From Caldifarciminota bacterium (lineage in GTDB: Bacteria > Hydrothermota > Tepidihabitantia > SM23-42), in assembly GCA_027026255.1 (NCBI GenBank), contig JALVOT010000009.1, positions 89,833 to 153,832 of the forward strand: DNA of 64,000 bases, given 5' to 3'. Both the position numbers and the translations under genes were made by a program. Numbering within the stretch: position 1 is the stretch's first letter; the number at the start of each line of letters is the position of its first letter. Positions 6,309 to 57,087 of the stretch are shown here, in pieces. Below the pieces are notes generated by a model. It worked only from the letters and a program-made list of their open reading frames with translations. It made no database searches and was not told the DNA's origin.

Positions 6309-6551
6309 TCATCCTTTTTCTGATTCAATCCATTTTTTAAGTTCCTCTTTTGAGGGAATCCGGCCTGAACATTTTACCTTACCATTAATCACAAGCCCCG
6401 GAGTGGCGATAATCTTATATTTTGCAATTTCACTGATGTCCGTGACCTTCTGGACATCGGCTGGAATATTCATTTCAGCAAGGACATTGATTGTCCTCTT
6501 TTCCACTTCCTGACATCTGGGACAGCCAGCACCAAGGATTTTAATTTCCAT
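6309..6551 (-). CDS. Small thioredoxin-like redox-active disulfide protein (MTH895/TM0996 type)
   Basis: This 80-residue protein has the short thioredoxin fold of the MTH895/TM0996 family. The CPRC redox motif is at residues 10-13 (KILGAGCPRCQEVE) and the cis-proline segment is 'IIATPGLVINGKV'. It is the last gene of the ArsR-led operon and overlaps the preceding ferredoxin gene by 11 bases. In many anaerobes such mini-thioredoxins sit beside ArsP-like permeases. A role in keeping thiols of the permease or of a metal-handling step reduced is inference from this context. Confidence 0.85.
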   Translation of the reverse strand: MEIKILGAGCPRCQEVEKRTINVLAEMNIPADVQKVTDISEIAKYKIIATPGLVINGKVKCSGRIPSKEELKKWIESEKG

Positions 6552-6870
6552 TATTGCCTCCTTTCTTGATTGTTAATTTTCCTTCTTTTTTTAAGGCCTC
6601 TCTTACCTTGAGCCAGACCTTATTTTTTTTATAGATTTTTCTAATATAATCGCGGTCCGGAAAGCTTATTGCATCTTTCATACATAAGACCGCACAGGTG
6701 GTGCATCCGGGAACACAGTCATAAGGGTGTTTCACAAGCGGACCGGCATCAGTCCAGTTGTATACCTTCCGGCCGCAGTTCATACACATTCCGCATTTAA
6801 CACATTGGCTGTAATCAATTTCGGGAAACCAGTCAATCTTTTCCCGGGGATATCCCGCAAGCCAGGGCAT
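6541..6870 (-). CDS. Ferredoxin-like protein of the metal/redox operon
   Basis: The 109-residue product has two groups of cysteines. The first is CVKCGMCMNC (residues about 23-32). The second is CVPGCTTCAVLC (about 52-63). Together they could hold two 4Fe-4S clusters, though the spacing differs from classical 2[4Fe-4S] ferredoxins. The C-terminal third is lysine-rich. It lies 15 bases after the permease gene and overlaps the mini-thioredoxin. It probably supplies electrons to the redox proteins of the operon. Confidence 0.75.
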   Translation of the reverse strand: MPWLAGYPREKIDWFPEIDYSQCVKCGMCMNCGRKVYNWTDAGPLVKHPYDCVPGCTTCAVLCMKDAISFPDRDYIRKIYKKNKVWLKVREALKKEGKLTIKKGGNNGN

Positions 6871-6885
6871 AGCAACTCCTCCTTA

Positions 6886-8052
6886 TTAAAAGAGACCGCC
6901 GTATAACCAGCCCACTAAGGTGGAAAGGATAACAACGAGAATGATGTAGGTAAGGGTCTTTTTGGTGCCGATGATTGAGCGAATCACAAGCATTGAGGGA
7001 AGACTCACCGCAGGTCCAGCCAGAAGAAGGGATAGGGCAGGACCTTTGCCCATTCCGGCTCCAATTAGTCCCTGGAGGATTGGAACCTCGGTGAGGGTGG
7101 CAAAATACATAAAGGCACCGGCGATTGCCGCAAAGAAGTTTGAAAGGATTGAATTTCCTCCGACCAGCATGCTGATAAATTTCTCAGGGATTATTCCCGC
7201 CCCGGTATTGGGTCTTCCCAGGAGAAATCCTGCAACCATTACCCCGGCAAAGAGCAGTGGTAATATCTGCCGGGTAAAGACCCAGGTGGAGAAGGTCCAT
7301 TCAGAAATTTCCTGCTTTGTGAACCACTTAAAGAGGATGACCAATAAGAATATTAATGAACCACCAGCCAGATACCAGTGAATATTATAGACCGCATTCC
7401 AGAATCCAACCGCCTCCTTTGGTTTTGCCCATGCCGCAAAAATCAGGAGTAATATCAGGGATAAGAAGTAGAGACCATTCTGACCAAGGGTTCTCATCTT
7501 TTTCTGCTTGTGCTCCACTTCGGCAAATTCCTCGTCTTCTTTCTTTTCTGTTTTGAATATCACCGACATCAAGATGCCTATCACGATTGAGAAGACGACC
7601 GCGCCCACAGCCCGGGCGATGCCCAGTTCAAAGCCCAGCACTCTGGCGGTGAGGATGATTGCCAGAACATTGATTGCCGGACCTGCGTAGAGGAATGCGG
7701 TTGCCGGACCGATTCCCGCGCCACGGGTATAGATTCCGGCAAACATCGGCAGGACGGTGCAGGAGCAGACTGCAAGGATTGACCCGGAGACTGATGCGAT
7801 GCCGTAGGCAAGAGCCTTATTTGCCTTTGGACCAAAGTATTTTATCACCGCTTCCTTGGAGATGAAGATTGAGATTGCCCCGGCAATGAAAAATGCCGGA
7901 ATTAAACAGAAAAGGACATGCTTGCGGGCATATTCCTGTGCCATATAGAATGCTTCAAAAATCGCACCAGCGATTCTTGCCTGATCAAAGGGAATGAAAT
8001 AGAAGGCACAGAAGACAAGGATGAAGATAATGAGTCTGGTTTGATCTTTCAT
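6886..8052 (-). CDS. ArsP/DUF318-type permease
   Basis: This 388-residue protein has about ten membrane segments and a charged cytoplasmic loop near residues 165-185 (KTEKKEDEEFAEVEHKQKK). The CSCT motif at about 97-100 (ILAVCSCTVLPMFAGIY) and the glycine/proline-rich 'LYAGPAINVLAI' and 'LLAGPAVSLPSML' repeats are typical of the DUF318/ArsP permeases. That family includes organoarsenical and SO_0444-type metal efflux proteins. Its start overlaps the ccdA-like stop by four bases. Transport of an arsenical or a thiophilic metal fits the ArsR gene that leads the operon, but the substrate cannot be read from sequence. Confidence 0.8.
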   Translation of the reverse strand: MKDQTRLIIFILVFCAFYFIPFDQARIAGAIFEAFYMAQEYARKHVLFCLIPAFFIAGAISIFISKEAVIKYFGPKANKALAYGIASVSGSILAVCSCTVLPMFAGIYTRGAGIGPATAFLYAGPAINVLAIILTARVLGFELGIARAVGAVVFSIVIGILMSVIFKTEKKEDEEFAEVEHKQKKMRTLGQNGLYFLSLILLLIFAAWAKPKEAVGFWNAVYNIHWYLAGGSLIFLLVILFKWFTKQEISEWTFSTWVFTRQILPLLFAGVMVAGFLLGRPNTGAGIIPEKFISMLVGGNSILSNFFAAIAGAFMYFATLTEVPILQGLIGAGMGKGPALSLLLAGPAVSLPSMLVIRSIIGTKKTLTYIILVVILSTLVGWLYGGLF

Positions 8053-8750
8053 AAATATCCTCTATTTAAGAGAAAGAATATTCCAACCAGGATGATCAGC
8101 ACCGCCGCAATTTTTTGCAGCACCATATTTGCGGTTTTGAAATGTTTTGATTCCAGAAGGCCTTTTGCCGCACCGATTGAAGTTCCGGCGATGACAATGA
8201 GAATCGAATGGCCCAGGGCGTAGCAGAAAAGTAGTCCAATGCCGTAGACGATGCTGCCTTTGTTGGCAATCAGGATAAGGATTACTGCCAGGATCGGTAC
8301 TGCACAGGGGGTTGATACTACACCAAAGAGCATTCCCATAAGGATTGCACCGAGGAATCCTGCCTTTTGAGGATTCGCAATATTAAGGACCGGGATCGGG
8401 ATTTTTAATATGCCTAAGAGGTGGATTCCCATCAGAAGGCAGACGAAAAAGACAAGATAATTCCAGAACGAGCCGACATCACCGAGCAGCCGGCCGGTTC
8501 CTGCGGCAATAATTCCCAGAATTGAGAAGGTGATTGATAGTCCGATAACAAAGAAGAGGGAAAATAACAGGGATTTCTTTATACCGCTAAGTTCACCGGT
8601 TCCACCGACCAGACCGAGCATCAAGGGAATCATCGCCAGAACACAGGGGTTGGATGCGGTAACTATACCACCCAGAAAGACGACAATAAATGCAAGCCAG
8701 GGGTTGGTATTTATGATATGCTCAGCGTTCTGGAGTAGGGATTGAATCAT
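8049..8750 (-). CDS. CcdA-like thiol:disulfide membrane transporter
   Basis: This 233-residue protein has six membrane helices in the inverted-repeat layout of CcdA. Each half carries the conserved proline-cysteine: SNPCVLAMIPL near residue 35 and STPCAVPILAV near residue 147. CcdA proteins carry electrons from cytoplasmic thioredoxin to an extracytoplasmic thioredoxin. The upstream gene encodes an exported thioredoxin fusion, and the start overlaps its stop by four bases. The two therefore probably form one reductant-export unit. Confidence 0.88.
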   Translation of the reverse strand: MIQSLLQNAEHIINTNPWLAFIVVFLGGIVTASNPCVLAMIPLMLGLVGGTGELSGIKKSLLFSLFFVIGLSITFSILGIIAAGTGRLLGDVGSFWNYLVFFVCLLMGIHLLGILKIPIPVLNIANPQKAGFLGAILMGMLFGVVSTPCAVPILAVILILIANKGSIVYGIGLLFCYALGHSILIVIAGTSIGAAKGLLESKHFKTANMVLQKIAAVLIILVGIFFLLNRGYL

Positions 8751-46617: not shown

Positions 46618-46691
46618 AAATTATGGAAAGGAGGTGATAACAACAAAGAAACATTGAACATTTAATATCTTTTATCTTGAAAGGAGGTAAT

Positions 46692-49600
46692 ATGTCATTA
46701 GGTTTGTGCCTAATATTATTGATAAGTCTTCACCCGCAGGAGTTAAGCCCACTGATTAATCCACCAATGACACAATATTTTAATCCTGAATATCGTGCTG
46801 AATACGATTATATCTCAATCAACGGCTATCGCTTCAATCCTAAAAAAGATGTTCCCAATATACCTGAAGAACTGAGAGGAGAGACTGGATACTATCTAAT
46901 CCAGATTAAGGGTCCGGTATTTGATGATATGAAGAGACTGATTGAATCTTATGGGGTTCGATTAGCCGAATATATACCTTATAATACATTCATCGCTCGA
47001 ATGAATTCTACCCAGAAGTCGATTATTGAAGGGTTATCTTTTGTGAATTGGGTAGGTAATTATGAACCTGCATATAAGATAAGTCCACTTTTTAAAGAAA
47101 TAAGAGATGAAAATAAGATGGTCCTTCTACTCTTCAATGATGCAGATGTCCAGGGTGTTGTTAATGACCTAAGGAAGATAGGATGCGAAATTTTGGATAT
47201 TGAATTGACTAAGGATAATAAGGTTGTTGAGATTCGTGCTGAACATTCAAAGATTGCAGAAATGAGTCATATCCCGGGGATTATGTGGATTGAGCCCTGG
47301 GCAGAGACTGTGCTCTTCAACTCCAATGCCCAGTGGGTTACCCAGACCTGGAAACAGAATAATCGCCGAATCTGGAATAAAGGGATTGATGGTGAAGGCC
47401 AGGTTGTAACGACCAGTGATACAGGGATCTTAACTTCTCATAATATGGTGAGGGACCCATCTCATCCGATTAATAATGTTGGAGATTATCCAAATCATCG
47501 TAAGATTATTGCTTATAAGATTCCATATGGCTCATCAGCTACATTCGGTGATAATGCTGCTGGTTCCTGGCATGGAACTCATACCTGTGGAACTATCTGT
47601 GGCGATGATTCTTATGTGAACGGGACTGAACCGGACGATGGTATTTCTATAAAGGCAAAGATCTATTTTGAGGATATCGGTAATGATCAGGGCAACGTAT
47701 CCTTTCCCAGCAATTATGATAATCTTTGGCAACCACCCTACGATGGAAATGCTGGTGGTGCAGCAAGGTCCAGTTCAAATTCCTGGGGGCAGACATCCGG
47801 TAATTCATATACAATGGGGTCACGGATGGTTGATATATTTATGTGGAATCATAAAGATTTCTTGATTTCCTTCTCTGCAGGTAATGATGGCCCAGGTTCA
47901 AACACGGTTCGTCCTCCATCCACCGCAAAGGATTGTATTACGGCCGGGGCATGTGGAAATGGTGCTGGTGGCAATCAGGTGGCATCTTTTTCCAGTCGCG
48001 GTCCGACTGCGGATAATCGAATAAAACCTACGGTTACTGCTCCAGGTTTAAATCTCAGGTCTTCAGTAGGTCCCAATAATAATAGTTATACACTGATGTC
48101 AGGTACCAGTATGGCTTCACCCTGTATTGGTGGTAATATGGCATTGGTCAGGGATTATTTTGCCAGCGGCTTTTATCCGACCGGGGTTGAAACTCCATCT
48201 AATGCCTGGGGTTATATCAGTGCAGCAATGGTAAAGGCAATTCTTATAAATAGTGCAAAGCCTGATATTCATGGGGTAACAATTCCTGATAATAATACAG
48301 GTTGGGGTAGAATCTGTCTTGATAATGTTCTCTATTTTGCAAATGACATCCGTAAACTTGCAGTATGGGACGACACATCAGGTGTTAGCACCGGTCAGAC
48401 AAAGACTTTCCAGGTATCGGTCAACAATCGATCAGAACCGTTGAAAATTACATTGGTCTGGACCGATTATTATGCTACATCTGGAGCCAATCCGGCAATT
48501 GTTAATGACCTTAATCTTAGGGTGACTGCACCAGGTGGGGCTAAATATCGCGGGAATCAGTATTCTGGTGGGCAATCAATACCTAATCCCAATTCCTGGG
48601 ATACCAGGAATGTTGAGGAAAATGTCCGGCGTGATGTTCCTGAGACCGGAACCTGGACAATTGAAGTTATTGGTCAGAATGTTGCTCAGGGTCCTCAACC
48701 ATTTGCCCTGGTGGTTTCTGGTGGTTTAGGTGATCCGGCTGATCCTGTGCTCCATATTAGTGGAGATTTAATTGAGGATCCATCACCCGGGGGAAATGGT
48801 AATGGCAGGATTGATCCTGGTGATACTGTTTATCTAACCGACACCCTGGTAAATTCTTCAGCTGCCGGGGTCACGGGTTGTGTTGGGAAGTTAAGGACAT
48901 CCAGCGCCTATGTTACACTTTTGGACTCAGTAAGTAATTTTGGGGCTGTTCCAGTTGGTGATACTGTACATAATGGTTCAAGTCGATTCAGATTTTCAGT
49001 GTCAAGTTCGACCCCTGAGGGTACGATGATTACATTTGTTCTTCATCTCACAGGTGGCGGTGGCTATGTTCAGGATATTGAGTTTGAATTGACAGTTGGC
49101 TTTCCAGGTCTTCAGGTTATCTGGGGGCCAAAACAGCTTCAGATTGAACCTGGTGACACCCATTTTATATATGGGCTTGGGTATAATCCCAATAACAACC
49201 GGCTCTATGTCACTAACTTTTATGAACGCCATATCTATATGTATACCTCGGATAGTAATGCGACCTATCTGGGATATATCAATGCACCTGATTCAATGGG
49301 GACTGATATAAAGTATTGTTCTTATGACAGTACTCTATGGTTTGCCGGTGGTAATACCAAAAAGGTTTACAAGATTGATTTGAATGGGAATGTTCTGAGG
49401 CAATTTAGCAACCCGGCAAGTACATATCCGTGCGGCCTTGCCTGGCTTGAATCATCACGACTGCTTTATCTTTCTGATCGTTTGAATAACAGCACAAATT
49501 CATACATTTATAAAAGCGATACCGTTGGGAATTGGAATTTGCGGATTGATATTCCTTTAAAAGCAGTGAATGCAACCCGATGCCTTGCATTGGAACCGAA

Positions 49601-50150
49601 CAATCCGGATATATCACTCTTGTTGATCTATACAGCATTTAACAGTAATAATACCCTTGATTCTGTGGGTTTATATGAGCTTGATCGGGAATACGGAGAT
49701 GTTATTCAAAGGATTTTGTTCCCGGGCTGGAATGTACGGGGTGTAGAATATGATCCGAGGGATGGTAATTATTGGGTGACGATTGCCGAAGGACCTGACC
49801 GTTCGATTGTGAAGATTGCTGGTTTTTATGGTGTTATCCCGGGGGTTAAAGAACAGAGGTTAATAAACGCACATCCGTTCTTCCTCGCCCCGGCTATACC
49901 CAACCCATTTGCTAATCAGGTGAAATTTTCTTATTCAATTCCATCAAAGATGAAGGTGAAACTGGCACTCTATGATGTAACTGGAAGGCTTGTGACCACT
50001 CTTGTTAATGGTGTTGAGACGCCGGGTGTGAAGACAATTATATGGGATGGTAAGACCGACAATGGTTCACTGATATCTAATGGGGTCTACTTCTGCTATC
50101 TCGAAACTGAGGCTGGCTCACTTGTGAGGAAGGTTGTTCACACAAGATAA
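46692..50150 (+). CDS. Large secreted subtilisin-like (S8) protease with propeller and sorting domain
   Basis: 1152 residues from ATG 46692 (AAAGGAGG just upstream). A short signal segment and long propeptide precede the S8 domain. The triad is near D243 (VVTTSDTGI), H294 (GSWHGTHTCGT) and S473 (LMSGTSMASPC). Next comes a P-domain-like beta sandwich (about 590-680: LNLRVTAPGGAKY, GTWTIEVIG), then a Gly/Asp-rich segment. An NHL-like propeller (about 800-1045: GLGYNPNNNRLYVTNF, GVEYDPRDGNYWV) and a FlgD/T9SS-like C-terminal domain (PFANQVKFSYSI, YDVTGRLVTTLV, GVYFCYLETEAG) complete it. The last two modules match the interrupted gene at 5117-6244. The protein is probably exported and processed at the C-terminus. 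Confidence 0.92.
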   Translation: MSLGLCLILLISLHPQELSPLINPPMTQYFNPEYRAEYDYISINGYRFNPKKDVPNIPEELRGETGYYLIQIKGPVFDDMKRLIESYGVRLAEYIPYNTFIARMNSTQKSIIEGLSFVNWVGNYEPAYKISPLFKEIRDENKMVLLLFNDADVQGVVNDLRKIGCEILDIELTKDNKVVEIRAEHSKIAEMSHIPGIMWIEPWAETVLFNSNAQWVTQTWKQNNRRIWNKGIDGEGQVVTTSDTGILTSHNMVRDPSHPINNVGDYPNHRKIIAYKIPYGSSATFGDNAAGSWHGTHTCGTICGDDSYVNGTEPDDGISIKAKIYFEDIGNDQGNVSFPSNYDNLWQPPYDGNAGGAARSSSNSWGQTSGNSYTMGSRMVDIFMWNHKDFLISFSAGNDGPGSNTVRPPSTAKDCITAGACGNGAGGNQVASFSSRGPTADNRIKPTVTAPGLNLRSSVGPNNNSYTLMSGTSMASPCIGGNMALVRDYFASGFYPTGVETPSNAWGYISAAMVKAILINSAKPDIHGVTIPDNNTGWGRICLDNVLYFANDIRKLAVWDDTSGVSTGQTKTFQVSVNNRSEPLKITLVWTDYYATSGANPAIVNDLNLRVTAPGGAKYRGNQYSGGQSIPNPNSWDTRNVEENVRRDVPETGTWTIEVIGQNVAQGPQPFALVVSGGLGDPADPVLHISGDLIEDPSPGGNGNGRIDPGDTVYLTDTLVNSSAAGVTGCVGKLRTSSAYVTLLDSVSNFGAVPVGDTVHNGSSRFRFSVSSSTPEGTMITFVLHLTGGGGYVQDIEFELTVGFPGLQVIWGPKQLQIEPGDTHFIYGLGYNPNNNRLYVTNFYERHIYMYTSDSNATYLGYINAPDSMGTDIKYCSYDSTLWFAGGNTKKVYKIDLNGNVLRQFSNPASTYPCGLAWLESSRLLYLSDRLNNSTNSYIYKSDTVGNWNLRIDIPLKAVNATRCLALEPNNPDISLLLIYTAFNSNNTLDSVGLYELDREYGDVIQRILFPGWNVRGVEYDPRDGNYWVTIAEGPDRSIVKIAGFYGVIPGVKEQRLINAHPFFLAPAIPNPFANQVKFSYSIPSKMKVKLALYDVTGRLVTTLVNGVETPGVKTIIWDGKTDNGSLISNGVYFCYLETEAGSLVRKVVHTR

Positions 50151-52950: not shown

Positions 52951-52978
52951 TTGACTTTTGAGGAAACTTAAATAAAAT
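52951..52978 (+). promoter_or_regulatory. Promoter of the Cys-His-Ser-Ala/radical SAM operon
   Basis: -35 TTGACT (52951-52956), 16-bp spacer, -10 TAAAAT (52973-52978). AAAGGAGG (52985-52992) follows, so the leader is very short. The next genes to 58854 lie within eight bases of each other or overlap. Confidence 0.65.
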
Positions 52979-52996
52979 ATCGGTAAAGGAGGTATG

Positions 52997-53386
52997 ATGA
53001 ATTTACCTTATGGCGAAATAAAGGGTAAGACATTGATTATGCGTTTTTCTACTGCGGATTTTTCTATCGCATCGGTACTCAGTGCAATTAAGATTCACCT
53101 TGATGTCATTGAAAATATGAATGTCAGTTTTCTTGGTGCCGAAACCGAGGTGATTGCCGGACCAAATCCGGTTTTCCAGCCGGTTCCGGTAATTGCCCAG
53201 TTTGAATATCTTGGAAAAGAGAAGCCTCAGGAGATTCTGCAAAGGGTTTATCAGATTGTCTGGCAGGGGATTGTTGATTCGTTCCCGGATGAGAAATCCT
53301 GGGCTGAGGCCAAGGAGGCATATTCTGCATTTGTCTCCGCCCAGGCAGACCTTTTGCGTGCCCGGATTGAGGCGGCCCGGGAATAG
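52997..53386 (+). CDS. Small protein of unknown function at the head of the radical SAM operon
   Basis: I choose ATG 52997 over ATG 52994 because it sits four bases after AAAGGAGG. The 129-residue product has no signal peptide and no cysteine. The first half is beta-rich (YGEIKGKTLIMRFSTADFSI, NVSFLGAETEVIAGPNPVF). The second half is helical and acidic (PQEILQRVYQIVWQGIVDSF, AQADLLRARIEAARE). I recognise no family. Being first in the operon it could be an accessory or chaperone of the modification system. It is not an obvious RiPP precursor. Confidence 0.7.
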   Translation: MNLPYGEIKGKTLIMRFSTADFSIASVLSAIKIHLDVIENMNVSFLGAETEVIAGPNPVFQPVPVIAQFEYLGKEKPQEILQRVYQIVWQGIVDSFPDEKSWAEAKEAYSAFVSAQADLLRARIEAARE

Positions 53387-53394
53387 TTTAATAG

Positions 53395-54897
53395 ATGCTC
53401 CTTCTTTTTCTCCTCAGCCTGAGTATTGACCTGCGCTGGGTCGAGACTGATGTTTCTCTGCTCAGGGATGGCAGGGCGGATTTTGTCTACAAGATTCATT
53501 ATGAAGTGCGCACCGGCAAGATGCACGGTTTTTATCTCCAGGCTCTTGGTGTTGAACCATATTTTGATTACGAAGGTTCTTATGCGATAAGTTCAGGTGG
53601 TCATAGGTATCGCTTAGACATTAAGGAACTGGGTGATAAATACGACATTGTCCTTGACCGAGGTCAGGCATTTGGTCCGGGTGAGATTACATATATCATC
53701 CATTTCGGTGGTGACCTTGGCCGTGCGGGAAATCTTGCATATACTAAGAGTAAATTCGGGGAACTTGTGGTGCTCCACTGGGCACCGGTTCAATGGGATG
53801 AGCCGTTAGAACATTATACAGTTTATGTCCATTATCCAATTGCGCTGGGCAGCAAAAGTGTTAATCCTGAAGATATTGGTTTCCGCACCGAGAAATTTAT
53901 GAACGAGAATTATCTGCTTTCTTATTATGGCCAGCAATATCAGGGTAAATATTGGTTTACAGTACGCATCCATAAGGATGATGTTCAAACCCGGGAGAAG
54001 ATTATGATTCAGCAATATGTGCCTGCCAGATATTTTGATGTTGCAAAGTTTGGCAGGGCTGGAATAAGGCACAGAACAAAACCGGGCAAAAGATTTCCGG
54101 TTGAACTGGTCTATATGATTTTCTATCTTGTTCCTTATCTCTTTTATTCCCATCGTAAGGCAAAGAAACTTAAGGGTGCATATAGTGATGTTGCAAGTCT
54201 GAACTGGTTAAGGGATGATTGGATTCCTCCCAAGATTGAAGTATCAAGTTTTCGAAAGTCTGGTAAGGTTGCAAAACTTGATTTGATTGAGGCGGCACTG
54301 TTCCTTGATTATCCAGTTAATAAGGTTTTTACAATCCTCGCCCAGAAATTGGCTGAGCAGAAGGTGATTGAAATTATTTCAGGTGAGCCCCTGAAGATAA
54401 AGGTTCTTTCCCGACCCGGTAATCTAAGATATTATGAACAGGGTTTCTGTGATGCTGTAAAATCGGATGGCACCCTTGACCAGACAAGGCTGAAGGCACT
54501 TATCAATGAGGTGGTGCAGAAGATTTCCGCCAGGGTATGGGATTGTGATTTAGAATCGACCCGGGCGTACTACACCGAAAAGATTGGTTCACCATCAGCA
54601 GAAAGACCTATTGACAAAGAATATGATAGAAAGGAATACTACGATTATCTGATGAATCGAGAGTTTGTGCGGCTACACTATTATCGGAATGTAGAACAGG
54701 GAATGGGTGTATATTCTGCTCCGATGAAGAATTATTCGGCATTCATCCATTCGGACGCCTGCCATTCTGCCTGCTATGTTCATACCGCCTGTCATGATGC
54801 CTGCCACTCGGCGTGCCATTCAGCCTGCCACTCTGCCTGCCATTCTGCCTGCCACTCGGCGTGCCATTCAGCCTGTGTGAGCGGCGGTGCACATTAA
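53395..54897 (+). CDS. DUF2207-like membrane protein ending in a Cys-His-Ser-Ala repeat tail
   Basis: 500 residues. A short N-terminal hydrophobic signal leads into a beta-rich extracytoplasmic domain (about 14-225: VSLLRDGRADFVYKIHYEV, FGPGEITYIIHFGG) that resembles DUF2207. One membrane helix follows (about 233-252, VELVYMIFYLVPYLFYSH), then a cytoplasmic region with a winged-helix-like segment (KLDLIEAALFLDYPVNKVF). Residues 456-494 hold ten cysteines: seven CHSA units plus CYVHTA, CHDA and a final Cys before VSGGAH. In typical DUF2207 proteins the tail is glycine/serine-rich. The tail faces the cytoplasm by topology. The stop codon overlaps the start of a radical SAM gene, which suggests the tail is its substrate. 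Confidence 0.85.
   Translation: MLLLFLLSLSIDLRWVETDVSLLRDGRADFVYKIHYEVRTGKMHGFYLQALGVEPYFDYEGSYAISSGGHRYRLDIKELGDKYDIVLDRGQAFGPGEITYIIHFGGDLGRAGNLAYTKSKFGELVVLHWAPVQWDEPLEHYTVYVHYPIALGSKSVNPEDIGFRTEKFMNENYLLSYYGQQYQGKYWFTVRIHKDDVQTREKIMIQQYVPARYFDVAKFGRAGIRHRTKPGKRFPVELVYMIFYLVPYLFYSHRKAKKLKGAYSDVASLNWLRDDWIPPKIEVSSFRKSGKVAKLDLIEAALFLDYPVNKVFTILAQKLAEQKVIEIISGEPLKIKVLSRPGNLRYYEQGFCDAVKSDGTLDQTRLKALINEVVQKISARVWDCDLESTRAYYTEKIGSPSAERPIDKEYDRKEYYDYLMNREFVRLHYYRNVEQGMGVYSAPMKNYSAFIHSDACHSACYVHTACHDACHSACHSACHSACHSACHSACHSACVSGGAH
54802..54873 (+). repeat. Six tandem 12-base units encoding Cys-His-Ser-Ala
   Basis: Units begin TGC and differ only at synonymous positions (CAC/CAT, TCG/TCA/TCT, GCG/GCC). 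Units 5-6 repeat the exact sequence of units 1-2. A seventh, separate unit lies upstream at 54760-54771. Confidence 0.9.
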
Positions 54898-56213
54898 TGG
54901 ATAGGACAATTAATTACAATCTAAATTGGGTGGATGATTTTATTAAGGGGATTAAGGATTTTATCTATGTCCGAAACCAGGATCGATTATTGATTCTGGT
55001 GCCGAATCAGGTATACAGGCTGAACCAGAGCGGTGTGGATATCCTTAATTTTCTCCTGAAAGGCAATTCAATTTGTGAACTGCTCAAACAGGTGGGTGAT
55101 ACTGCCGAGCGCCGTGTCCATCTTCACTATTTTTTCTGTGATCTGCGTGCAGTGGTGTGTGGATGTCTTCGGGAAACTGAGAATCGGAAGGCGGTTGCCT
55201 ATTATGAATTTTCCGGGGCGCCGAATGAATATCCGGTCCTTTCTGAAATTGCCGTTACCTATCGTTGCAACCTGCGCTGCAGGTTTTGTTATGTGGGGGA
55301 TAAGGATTATCAGGAGTTGAATAGCAATGATCTTAAAAAGATTCTCTTTAAGATTTTCAATGATGCCCGGGTGCCATCGGTAAGTTTTACAGGTGGGGAA
55401 CCGCTTTTAAGGGATGATATTGTTGAACTGGTTGCATATGCAGGAGAGATTGGATTGTGGACAAATATGATTACCAACGGCACCCTGTTGAATAAGGATT
55501 TAGTGCAGGAACTACGGGCTGCCGGATTGCGCAGTGCCCAGGTAAGTATTGAGGGTTCTTGTGCCCGGGTTCATGATGCGCTCACCGGTGTTGCCGGTTC
55601 ATTTGATGCTACGCTTAGGGGAATAGAATTACTGAAACAGGCGGGAATTGCAGTTCATACAAATACGACAGTATCACGCGCTAATCTTTCAGACCTTTCA
55701 AATATTGTTGAACTTGTCAAAATCCGGGGTTTACCAAGACTTTCAATGAATCTTTTAATACCCTGTGGTGAGGCGGATACGGAAAGGGGTCTCTGGGTTT
55801 CTTATGAGGAGATCGGTGATTATATCTTAAGAACAAAGGAACGGGCAGATTCTCTCGGGATTCAGTTTCTCTGGTATTCACCGGTTGCGCTCTGTAAATT
55901 CAATCCGATCGCCTACGGGTTTGGAAATAAATCCTGTGCCGCAATCACCGGGCTTTTGAGTATTGACCCCTTAGGCAATATTATTCCCTGTTCCTCCTGG
56001 CGTATGCCGGTGGGTAATTTTTTGAAGAAAAGTTTTAAGGAAATCTGGAATTCTGAGATGCTCAGTTATTTCAAAAATGCCGAATATGCACCAGACCGTT
56101 GTCATCAATGCACTTATTTTGATATCTGTAAAGGGGCCTGTCCTTTATACTGGAAGGTCCACAGTCCTGGAGAACTGGATGGAAGACCATCGCGTCTATC
56201 TCATATTGGATAG
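54897..56213 (+). CDS. Radical SAM/SPASM enzyme with PqqD-like N-terminal domain
   Basis: 438 residues from the ATG overlapping the preceding TAA. Residues about 20-90 match a PqqD-like peptide-recognition domain (RLLILVPNQVYRLNQSGVDI, then LLKGNSICELLKQV). The radical SAM core has CNLRCRFC (C124, C128, C131), the GGEP motif (VSFTGGEPLLRDD) and later strands (TNTTVSRANLSDL). A SPASM domain follows: Cys near 347 (NKSCAAITG) and 365 (NIIPCSSW), then CHQC, C and C at about 402, 405, 411 and 415, enough for auxiliary 4Fe-4S clusters. This is the architecture of RiPP-maturing enzymes. The most plausible target is the Cys-rich tail encoded immediately upstream. Confidence 0.92.
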   Translation: MDRTINYNLNWVDDFIKGIKDFIYVRNQDRLLILVPNQVYRLNQSGVDILNFLLKGNSICELLKQVGDTAERRVHLHYFFCDLRAVVCGCLRETENRKAVAYYEFSGAPNEYPVLSEIAVTYRCNLRCRFCYVGDKDYQELNSNDLKKILFKIFNDARVPSVSFTGGEPLLRDDIVELVAYAGEIGLWTNMITNGTLLNKDLVQELRAAGLRSAQVSIEGSCARVHDALTGVAGSFDATLRGIELLKQAGIAVHTNTTVSRANLSDLSNIVELVKIRGLPRLSMNLLIPCGEADTERGLWVSYEEIGDYILRTKERADSLGIQFLWYSPVALCKFNPIAYGFGNKSCAAITGLLSIDPLGNIIPCSSWRMPVGNFLKKSFKEIWNSEMLSYFKNAEYAPDRCHQCTYFDICKGACPLYWKVHSPGELDGRPSRLSHIG

Positions 56214-57087
56214 GATTTCACCTCAATTGCGGGGATTGATTTCCACACTGTTAATTGCCGCAGGGTTCATCCTGCAACTCGATGCAAAAAATATTCTTGT
56301 CGGTATTCCGCTTATTGTCGGCTGTCTGGTTTTTAACCTGATGAAGGGGATAAAGATAAAAAGGGTTATTGCCGAAAAGTTACAGTGGCAGGAGGTGACA
56401 CCAGCCAAGATTGAACAGATTTTTGCCCAGTGCCAGCGTATAAAAAAGTTCAGAACCTTTGGTATCCAGGCGATTATAATATATATTATAATTGTTGTAT
56501 TTTTGTTCTCCTTTGCCTTTCCTTTATTGAGTTTGCTCCGGTTGCAGTTTGGAATCATTGCCGCACTCTTTGATGCCTTGATACTTTTTAGTGGCTTGAT
56601 TTTTACCGGTCAGCGTCGGGCCTGGATGCCACCAGGACTTGATATAAAGGCGCGGATTGTTAAGAGGATATTAGAATCACCTCTGGTGAAGACCCCCGGG
56701 CTGAAGGTTATCCCCTATCTTAAGGTGGGGATGCGTCAGGATGGTTCATTTCCCCAGGATGCAAGGGTTTTGATAAAATTTCTTGATGCCCCGGAGGATT
56801 TTATTGGTCTGCAGGGTCAGATATCAATTAATGCGGTTGGGGGGAAGTCTTATCCATACTTTTATGTGGTAATCATTGCAAAACCAGAGTTTGGATTATT
56901 GGAGAAATTTAAGGTGCGCTCAATTGAGAAGTTGACGATTGAAAAGAAGCACAGCGGTGATGTAGATGTTATCGTAATCAGACAGCATACTACAAAAAGG
57001 ACCGGATATTATACAAACGAAAATGCACAGGATTATATCCTCGCCCAGGGTATTAAACAGGCCCGCTCGATTCTGGGTATTTCTTAG
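56179..57087 (+). CDS. Membrane protein of unknown function in the radical SAM operon
   Basis: 302 residues from ATG 56179 (GGAG upstream), overlapping the radical SAM gene by 35 bases. Hydrophobic segments lie at about 18-30, 37-55, 95-115 and 120-138. A soluble C-terminal region (about 145-302) contains MPPGLDIKARIVKRI, QDARVLIKFLDAPEDFIGLQ and TKRTGYYTNENAQDYILAQG. I recognise no family. The overlap indicates coupled expression. A role in membrane assembly or anchoring of the modified protein is speculation. Confidence 0.75.
   Translation: MEDHRVYLILDRISPQLRGLISTLLIAAGFILQLDAKNILVGIPLIVGCLVFNLMKGIKIKRVIAEKLQWQEVTPAKIEQIFAQCQRIKKFRTFGIQAIIIYIIIVVFLFSFAFPLLSLLRLQFGIIAALFDALILFSGLIFTGQRRAWMPPGLDIKARIVKRILESPLVKTPGLKVIPYLKVGMRQDGSFPQDARVLIKFLDAPEDFIGLQGQISINAVGGKSYPYFYVVIIAKPEFGLLEKFKVRSIEKLTIEKKHSGDVDVIVIRQHTTKRTGYYTNENAQDYILAQGIKQARSILGIS

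Follow-up and report, generated by a model that had tools for sequence, protein, structure and literature searches.

Why should a membrane protein whose C-terminus is built from Cys-His-Ser-Ala (CHSA) units be encoded directly ahead of a radical SAM enzyme? The question is raised by a four-gene locus in a Caldifarciminota bacterium, on contig JALVOT010000009.1, of which we analysed a stretch of 64,000 nucleotides (the window). The original prediction, made from this DNA alone, held that the enzyme modifies the cytoplasmic tail of the membrane protein. Here we consider the proteins, the association of enzyme and tail across genomes, and the chemistry that the pairing may imply.

Layout of the locus

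The four tightly packed genes described originally are all present (Table 1). The ATG of gene 3 overlaps the TAA of gene 2, as had been noted, and the start of gene 4 overlaps gene 3. The single promoter proposed for the run is less secure: the site exists, but promoter-like sites in the region number 14 against 9.7 in shuffles (sd 3.0) and are not clearly in excess. Neither gene 1 nor gene 4 matches a Pfam family above cut-off, and comparison with solved folds gave nothing convincing for either. Gene 4 is an accessory gene of the CHSA cassette and accompanies the enzyme where enzyme and substrate are unlinked. Upstream of the cassette, at 46677-50150 of the window, lies a large, apparently unrelated subtilisin-like protease with a C-terminal sorting-type domain.

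Table 1. Features of the four-gene locus, in window coordinates.
Feature	Position	Strand	Remark
Candidate promoter TTGACT-N16-TAAAAT, ahead of the four-gene run	52951..52978	+	weak
Gene 1, 130 aa	52994..53386	+	seen in own-lineage loci only (also in L270)
Gene 2, 500 aa, divergent DUF2207 membrane scaffold with CHSA tail	53395..54897	+	predicted substrate
C-terminal tail of gene 2, CHSACYVHTACHDA(CHSA)6CVSGGAH	54760..54894	+	10 Cys
Gene 3, 438 aa, RRE-radical SAM-SPASM enzyme	54897..56213	+	predicted tail maturase
N-terminal PqqD-like (RRE) region of gene 3	54918..55220	+	relatives' weak PqqD matches
Radical SAM motif CNLRCRFC	55266..55289	+	
SPASM region of gene 3, CX2CX5CX3C	55893..56141	+	
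Gene 4, 302 aa, membrane protein with soluble beta-domain	56179..57087	+	

A DUF2207 scaffold with a conserved Cys tail

By profile comparison, gene 2 is a divergent DUF2207 scaffold. Taken singly it scores marginally against the Pfam model (PF09972; 24.0 bits, cut-off 24.4), yet its ortholog in genome G020 exceeds the cut-off (27.9 bits), and a profile-profile comparison of the CHSA scaffold with twelve canonical DUF2207 proteins gives an E value of 1.1e-8 spanning the outside and inside domains, in keeping with the DUF2207-like domain first proposed. The AlphaFold2 model contains a confident beta-domain (residues 10-210), a single long helix (236-266) corresponding to the one membrane helix expected, and a winged-helix-like, mostly helical domain at about 290-400; the linker is disordered and the tail helix is of low confidence. 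The main hydrophobic peak falls at the same helix in most orthologs. The proposed signal segment is upheld in the orthologs, which carry classical signal peptides, but is atypical in the gene 2 copy, where it has no basic residues. From the orthologs' signal peptides and the one membrane helix, we infer that the tail is cytosolic, on the same side as the enzyme. The homologous canonical DUF2207 protein SMU.243 of S. mutans is likewise reported to have its large N-terminus outside and its C-terminus inside (PMC10457818); unlike the CHSA scaffold, canonical proteins have a Gly/Ser-rich, Cys-free tail and no enzyme. The outside domain of gene 2 (53422-54024, residues 10-210) has a fold like those of the ribophorin I and M1 aminopeptidase N-terminal domains, a likeness of fold only, from which no function is inferred.

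The tail itself is a Cys repeat, not the Gly-rich tail that is typical, although not formally defining, of DUF2207. Counting places ten Cys within the 39 residues 456-494 of gene 2, as originally reported. In the window's own lineage (its family, order and class; genomes G000-G027), the tail is identical letter for letter save the last residue in about 21 relatives, the bodies of which show 50-79% identity, more than chance would give. Among 66 distinct tail DNAs from many phyla, CHSA tails hold eight to twelve Cys, and in the core repeats Cys, His and Ala are almost invariant, with Ser the sole freely variable position (S, D, N, H or Q). Across these same DNAs, 61% of identical tail residues are encoded by different codons, near free codon choice. 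To judge from this pattern, the CHSA tail is under strict selection.

The enzyme has the features of a peptide maturase

Gene 3 is predicted to be a radical SAM/SPASM peptide maturase, with the CxxxCxxC core, SPASM domain and N-terminal RRE of such enzymes. Its Pfam scores are well above cut-off for Radical_SAM (94.8 bits; cut-off 29.5) and SPASM (42.2; cut-off 21.5). The CxxxCxxC core is found in 74/74 tail-associated enzymes and CX2CX5CX3C in 60/74, some of the remainder being incomplete sequences. Single sequences show the PqqD-like domain weakly; it is seen through relatives of gene 3, 12 of 15 of which match PqqD (best E 2.5e-4); in one sister enzyme the match (24.4 bits) is above the Pfam cut-off of 23.4. 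These results agree with the domain assignment made at the outset. Comparison of the RRE region with solved structures returned chance matches only; for the enzyme, the best-scoring solved relative is SkfB. All NCBIfam models score below their cut-offs for enzyme and scaffold alike, in the CHSA class as in the CACA class described below.

Enzyme and tail occur together

The CHSA tail turned up in some 60 genomes belonging to about nine phyla. Except at breaks in the assemblies, the enzyme accompanies it in each of them, nearby or, in two, elsewhere in the genome. Genome counts are approximate, since several loci were reached via more than one search, and many of the genomes are metagenome assemblies in which some loci end at contig edges. 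In the own lineage, the tail gene is followed immediately by the enzyme gene and gene 4, and a further genome of the phylum (G113) has the same cassette. Enzyme loss in G018 and G020 is only apparent and due to N-gaps in the assembly scaffolds; in G020 a 38-residue start is common to both sides of the gap. Two genomes, G980 and G834, have no enzyme linked to the tail gene; there, another contig encodes both the enzyme and gene 4. Four members of the family yielded no tail (G012, G016, G013 and G010); they have weaker generic matches only, and no enzyme of the clade.

In other phyla, tails were located with a DNA-pattern scan, one genome per species. Among the matches listed, CHSA tails occur in Myxococcales, Acidobacteria, Kiritimatiellae, Chloroflexi, Planctomycetota, Abditibacteriota, Proteobacteria/Gammaproteobacteria and Spirochaetales (record names), and the enzyme adjoins the tail gene or is one gene away in all but one of these loci. 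The exception, in G147, is an extra copy of the tail with no enzyme of its own next to it, in a genome that has the cassette elsewhere. The reverse test gives the same picture: an enzyme at E<1e-50 occurs in 13/294 Planctomycetota genomes, and 12 of these enzymes adjoin a CHSA tail (or a locus broken inside the tail), while one adjoins a CACA tail. In an Abditibacteriota locus, a LemA gene (L127:4751-5293, minus strand) lies directly upstream of the CHSA cassette. At another locus (L387:4548-11484), two CHSA scaffolds and two copies of gene 4 surround a single enzyme, which suggests one enzyme serving two substrates.

DUF2207 proteins with Gly-rich tails serve as a control. Of 147 genomes of the own phylum, 52 have DUF2207 matches, and 20 DUF2207 regions were refetched with larger flanks. 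The tail is Gly-rich and Cys-free in 19 of them, the remaining gene being cut short, and the enzyme is nearby in 0/20. Because several of these regions stop shortly after the gene, the absence rests mainly on regions with a downstream flank longer than 2 kb and on a whole-genome search of ten Gly-tailed genomes, which found weaker generic matches only and no clade enzyme. The enzyme is nearby for 29/30 Cys tails and 0/19 Gly tails (Fisher p about 1e-12). The original prediction had expected Cys-rich tails with the enzyme and Gly-rich tails without it, and this is the distribution found, across about nine phyla and with none of 20 Gly-tailed regions as an exception; we saw neither enzyme homologs that are never near Cys tails nor such tails common without the enzyme, the two patterns named in advance as counter-evidence. 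Its central claim, that the enzyme modifies the tail, is supported by this co-occurrence and by the contrast with Gly tails.

Could the tail be an ordinary unmodified repeat, metal-binding or of low complexity, next to an unrelated enzyme? CHxx repeats do arise often in DNA, and most other matches of the pattern scan are short spurious ORFs. We nevertheless regard this as highly improbable, and as already largely refuted, given that the number and letters of the repeats are nearly fixed while their codons vary, and that enzyme and tail co-occur across phyla, even unlinked. A different reading, in which the scaffold is the partner of the enzyme (an electron donor, a metal donor or an anchor) rather than its substrate, predicts the same association, which would also arise in that case.

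Several repeat-bearing sequences were set aside. Apparent CHDA-like repeats in G059 (L033/L055) were judged to be a frame artefact of repetitive DNA, with scaffold and enzyme absent. Eight viral contigs have CHSA-coding repeats, and a viral origin was rejected, as none of the eight has the scaffold, the enzyme or gene 4. Short SACHSACHSA / SSKHNAY repeat frames, without scaffold or enzyme, occur in viral contigs at L397:2895-3089, L398:6022-6303 and L400:6495-6689. The CACA tail had no match in viral contigs, and plasmids gave no match.

A sister class with its own tail and enzyme clade

A second class of scaffolds ends in CACACACAGCACACAGGGR or CACACAGCACACACAGGGR (CACA) and has an enzyme clade of its own; its loci include L234-L239, L357-L375, L377 and L379. 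These scaffolds were found in six own-phylum genomes, one Planctomycetota genome, two of the Myxococcota set and about 20 Acidobacteriota, and nearly all have the enzyme in the same neighbourhood. They are homologous to the CHSA scaffold (E 5.5e-21) and to canonical DUF2207 (E 1.1e-12). The CACA tail consists of Cys, Ala and Gly only, and its Cys part follows a stretch rich in Gly.

We built a tree of 89 enzymes, comprising 23 CACA enzymes, 55 CHSA enzymes and other radical SAM proteins. The CHSA and CACA enzymes form separate groups, which unite (99/96) to the exclusion of the other radical SAM proteins; the exact root is unsure because the outgroup branches are long. Tail type changes twice in all on this tree, a number as low as this being reached in 0/200 shuffles. 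At a finer scale, the tail variants CVSSCAGSF and CHSGGSF and a CFxGCFxQP leader sort into subclades of the CHSA enzymes, a fine tracking that operon co-inheritance alone could give.

Two CACA neighbourhoods have further genes of note. Beside the CACA-type pair at L385, a second enzyme-like protein (6377-7648, minus strand) has a SPASM match and no radical SAM core match, and is possibly a degenerate partner. At L239, an SPFH/Band 7 protein with zinc ribbons (7388-8509, minus strand) and a small zinc-ribbon membrane protein (7032-7382, minus strand) lie upstream of the scaffold; the latter recurs in other CACA loci.

The two classes bear on the suggestion that the tail carries a metal or cofactor for the enzyme, which would itself act on some other molecule, such as a heme or small peptide. 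Metals can be bound by Cys/His repeats, and among the curated models those of the heme enzymes AhbD and NirJ give the CHSA enzymes their highest scores. Those scores (AhbD 173 and NirJ2 144 bits; cut-off 500) are, however, about a third of the cut-off or less, so that membership was rejected, and the CACA enzymes score best to PqqE. The PqqD-like domain points to a peptide substrate, there are two different tails, each with its own enzyme clade, and in the neighbourhoods inspected we noticed no further small ORF that is conserved. We therefore consider a carrier role of this kind distinctly unlikely.

Comparison with known systems

The closest published idea is the association of TIGR04222 membrane proteins, which have Cys-rich C-termini, with adjoining MNIO (DUF692) enzymes (PMC12452194, 2025). 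Both systems place a RiPP-type modifying enzyme beside a membrane scaffold with a low-complexity, Cys-containing C-terminal tail. They differ in the enzyme, which is radical SAM/SPASM here and MNIO there; in the tail, with strict CHSA or CA repeats here and Gly/Ser-rich sequence in TIGR04222; in its predicted location, cytosolic for CHSA and periplasmic for TIGR04222 (PMC12452194); and in the enzyme association, near complete here, whereas many TIGR04222 proteins have no MNIO. Some CHSA scaffolds have a sub-threshold match to the TIGR04222 profile in their cytosolic domain (2.5e-7), with a best score of 30.6 bits against a cut-off of 43, and no MNIO enzyme was noticed by eye among the neighbours in the loci listed.

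Three other groups are similar in part. The Cys-Xaa-Xaa-Xaa repeat radical SAM target TIGR04117 (NCBIfam) also has Cys at every fourth residue and a radical SAM enzyme beside it; the CHSA tail reaches 23.2 bits against a cut-off of 50, with the match limited to the tail region, and was not assigned to it. The ranthipeptide and sactipeptide maturases PapB, SkfB, CteB and StsB share the radical SAM core, SPASM-type auxiliary domain and N-terminal RRE, but act on short peptides, in contrast to the tails of 500-aa membrane proteins considered here; curated models of these maturases all score far below cut-off for the CHSA enzyme, PapB giving a generic radical SAM match (88 bits; cut-off 340). The His-Xaa-Ser systems (HxsA/HxsB/HxsC) likewise have His/Ser-containing repeats beside radical SAM genes, but Ser is the variable position in CHSA, which has one enzyme plus gene 4, and the HxsC4 match (89 bits; cut-off 500) is again generic. 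The kinship drawn earlier to ranthipeptide and His-Xaa-Ser systems thus fails as membership. In the literature searched, which included few subscription papers, so that a description elsewhere is possible, no paper joined radical SAM enzymes with DUF2207 or mentioned CHSA or CACA tails.

A model for tail modification

We conclude that the locus is very probably a dedicated modification cassette for a membrane-anchored protein; co-occurrence and co-evolution strongly support action of the enzyme on the CHSA tail, as far as sequence comparison can indicate. In the model that we propose, the scaffold would sit in the membrane with the beta-domain on the outer side, and both the winged-helix-like domain and the (CHSA)n tail would reach into the cytosol. 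Family knowledge suggests that the enzyme would bind its substrate through the PqqD-like RRE and work along the repeats by means of SAM-derived radicals, with the SPASM clusters helping. The most likely chemistry would be Cys thioether formation, repeated along the tail, to give a rigid sulfur-bridged or His/Cys-lined tail beneath the membrane.

Which residue would accept the sulfur? Ser varies, and so is an unlikely acceptor. If both enzyme clades carry out the same chemistry, the acceptor would be Ala, Gly or Cys, the sole residues available in the CACA tail, and on that premise a Cys-to-Ala thioether is our best, if tentative, guess. The enzyme might instead modify the tail without any cross-link; it could, for example, epimerise Ala or some other residue, or desaturate or decarboxylate Cys. 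The near invariance of Ala in both tail classes is in keeping with such a reaction, as is the presence of the epimerase YydG among the remote solved relatives, but the invariant Cys and His of every unit would be left unexplained, and SPASM enzymes of comparable build mostly form thioether or C-C links. We consider a reaction without links unlikely.

A role for the thioether-bearing or otherwise modified tail, perhaps in metal binding or envelope stress sensing, is speculative. The LemA gene of the CHSA locus, the SPFH/zinc-ribbon protein of the CACA locus and the stress phenotypes of a DUF2207 mutant (PMC10457818) together hint at envelope stress.

Implications

The association described here connects a widespread family of envelope proteins with a family of radical SAM enzymes that has no curated name. 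It also amounts to a natural experiment, in which one scaffold carries either a Gly tail without an enzyme or one of two Cys tails with two enzyme clades. Such near-total conservation of a tandem repeat is unusual and poses a testable chemical question, namely which atom accepts the Cys sulfur. Considered together with the MNIO/TIGR04222 pairs, these cassettes suggest that unrelated enzymes converged on the Cys-rich tails of membrane proteins. Tentatively, DUF2207-type scaffolds with interchangeable Cys tails and their own radical SAM/SPASM clades may form a new class, whose product would be a membrane-tethered, modified Cys/His rod (a polythioether or other) that is used in place and not released as a natural product. 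The prediction is that modified proteins, not peptides, would be found in many uncultured phyla.
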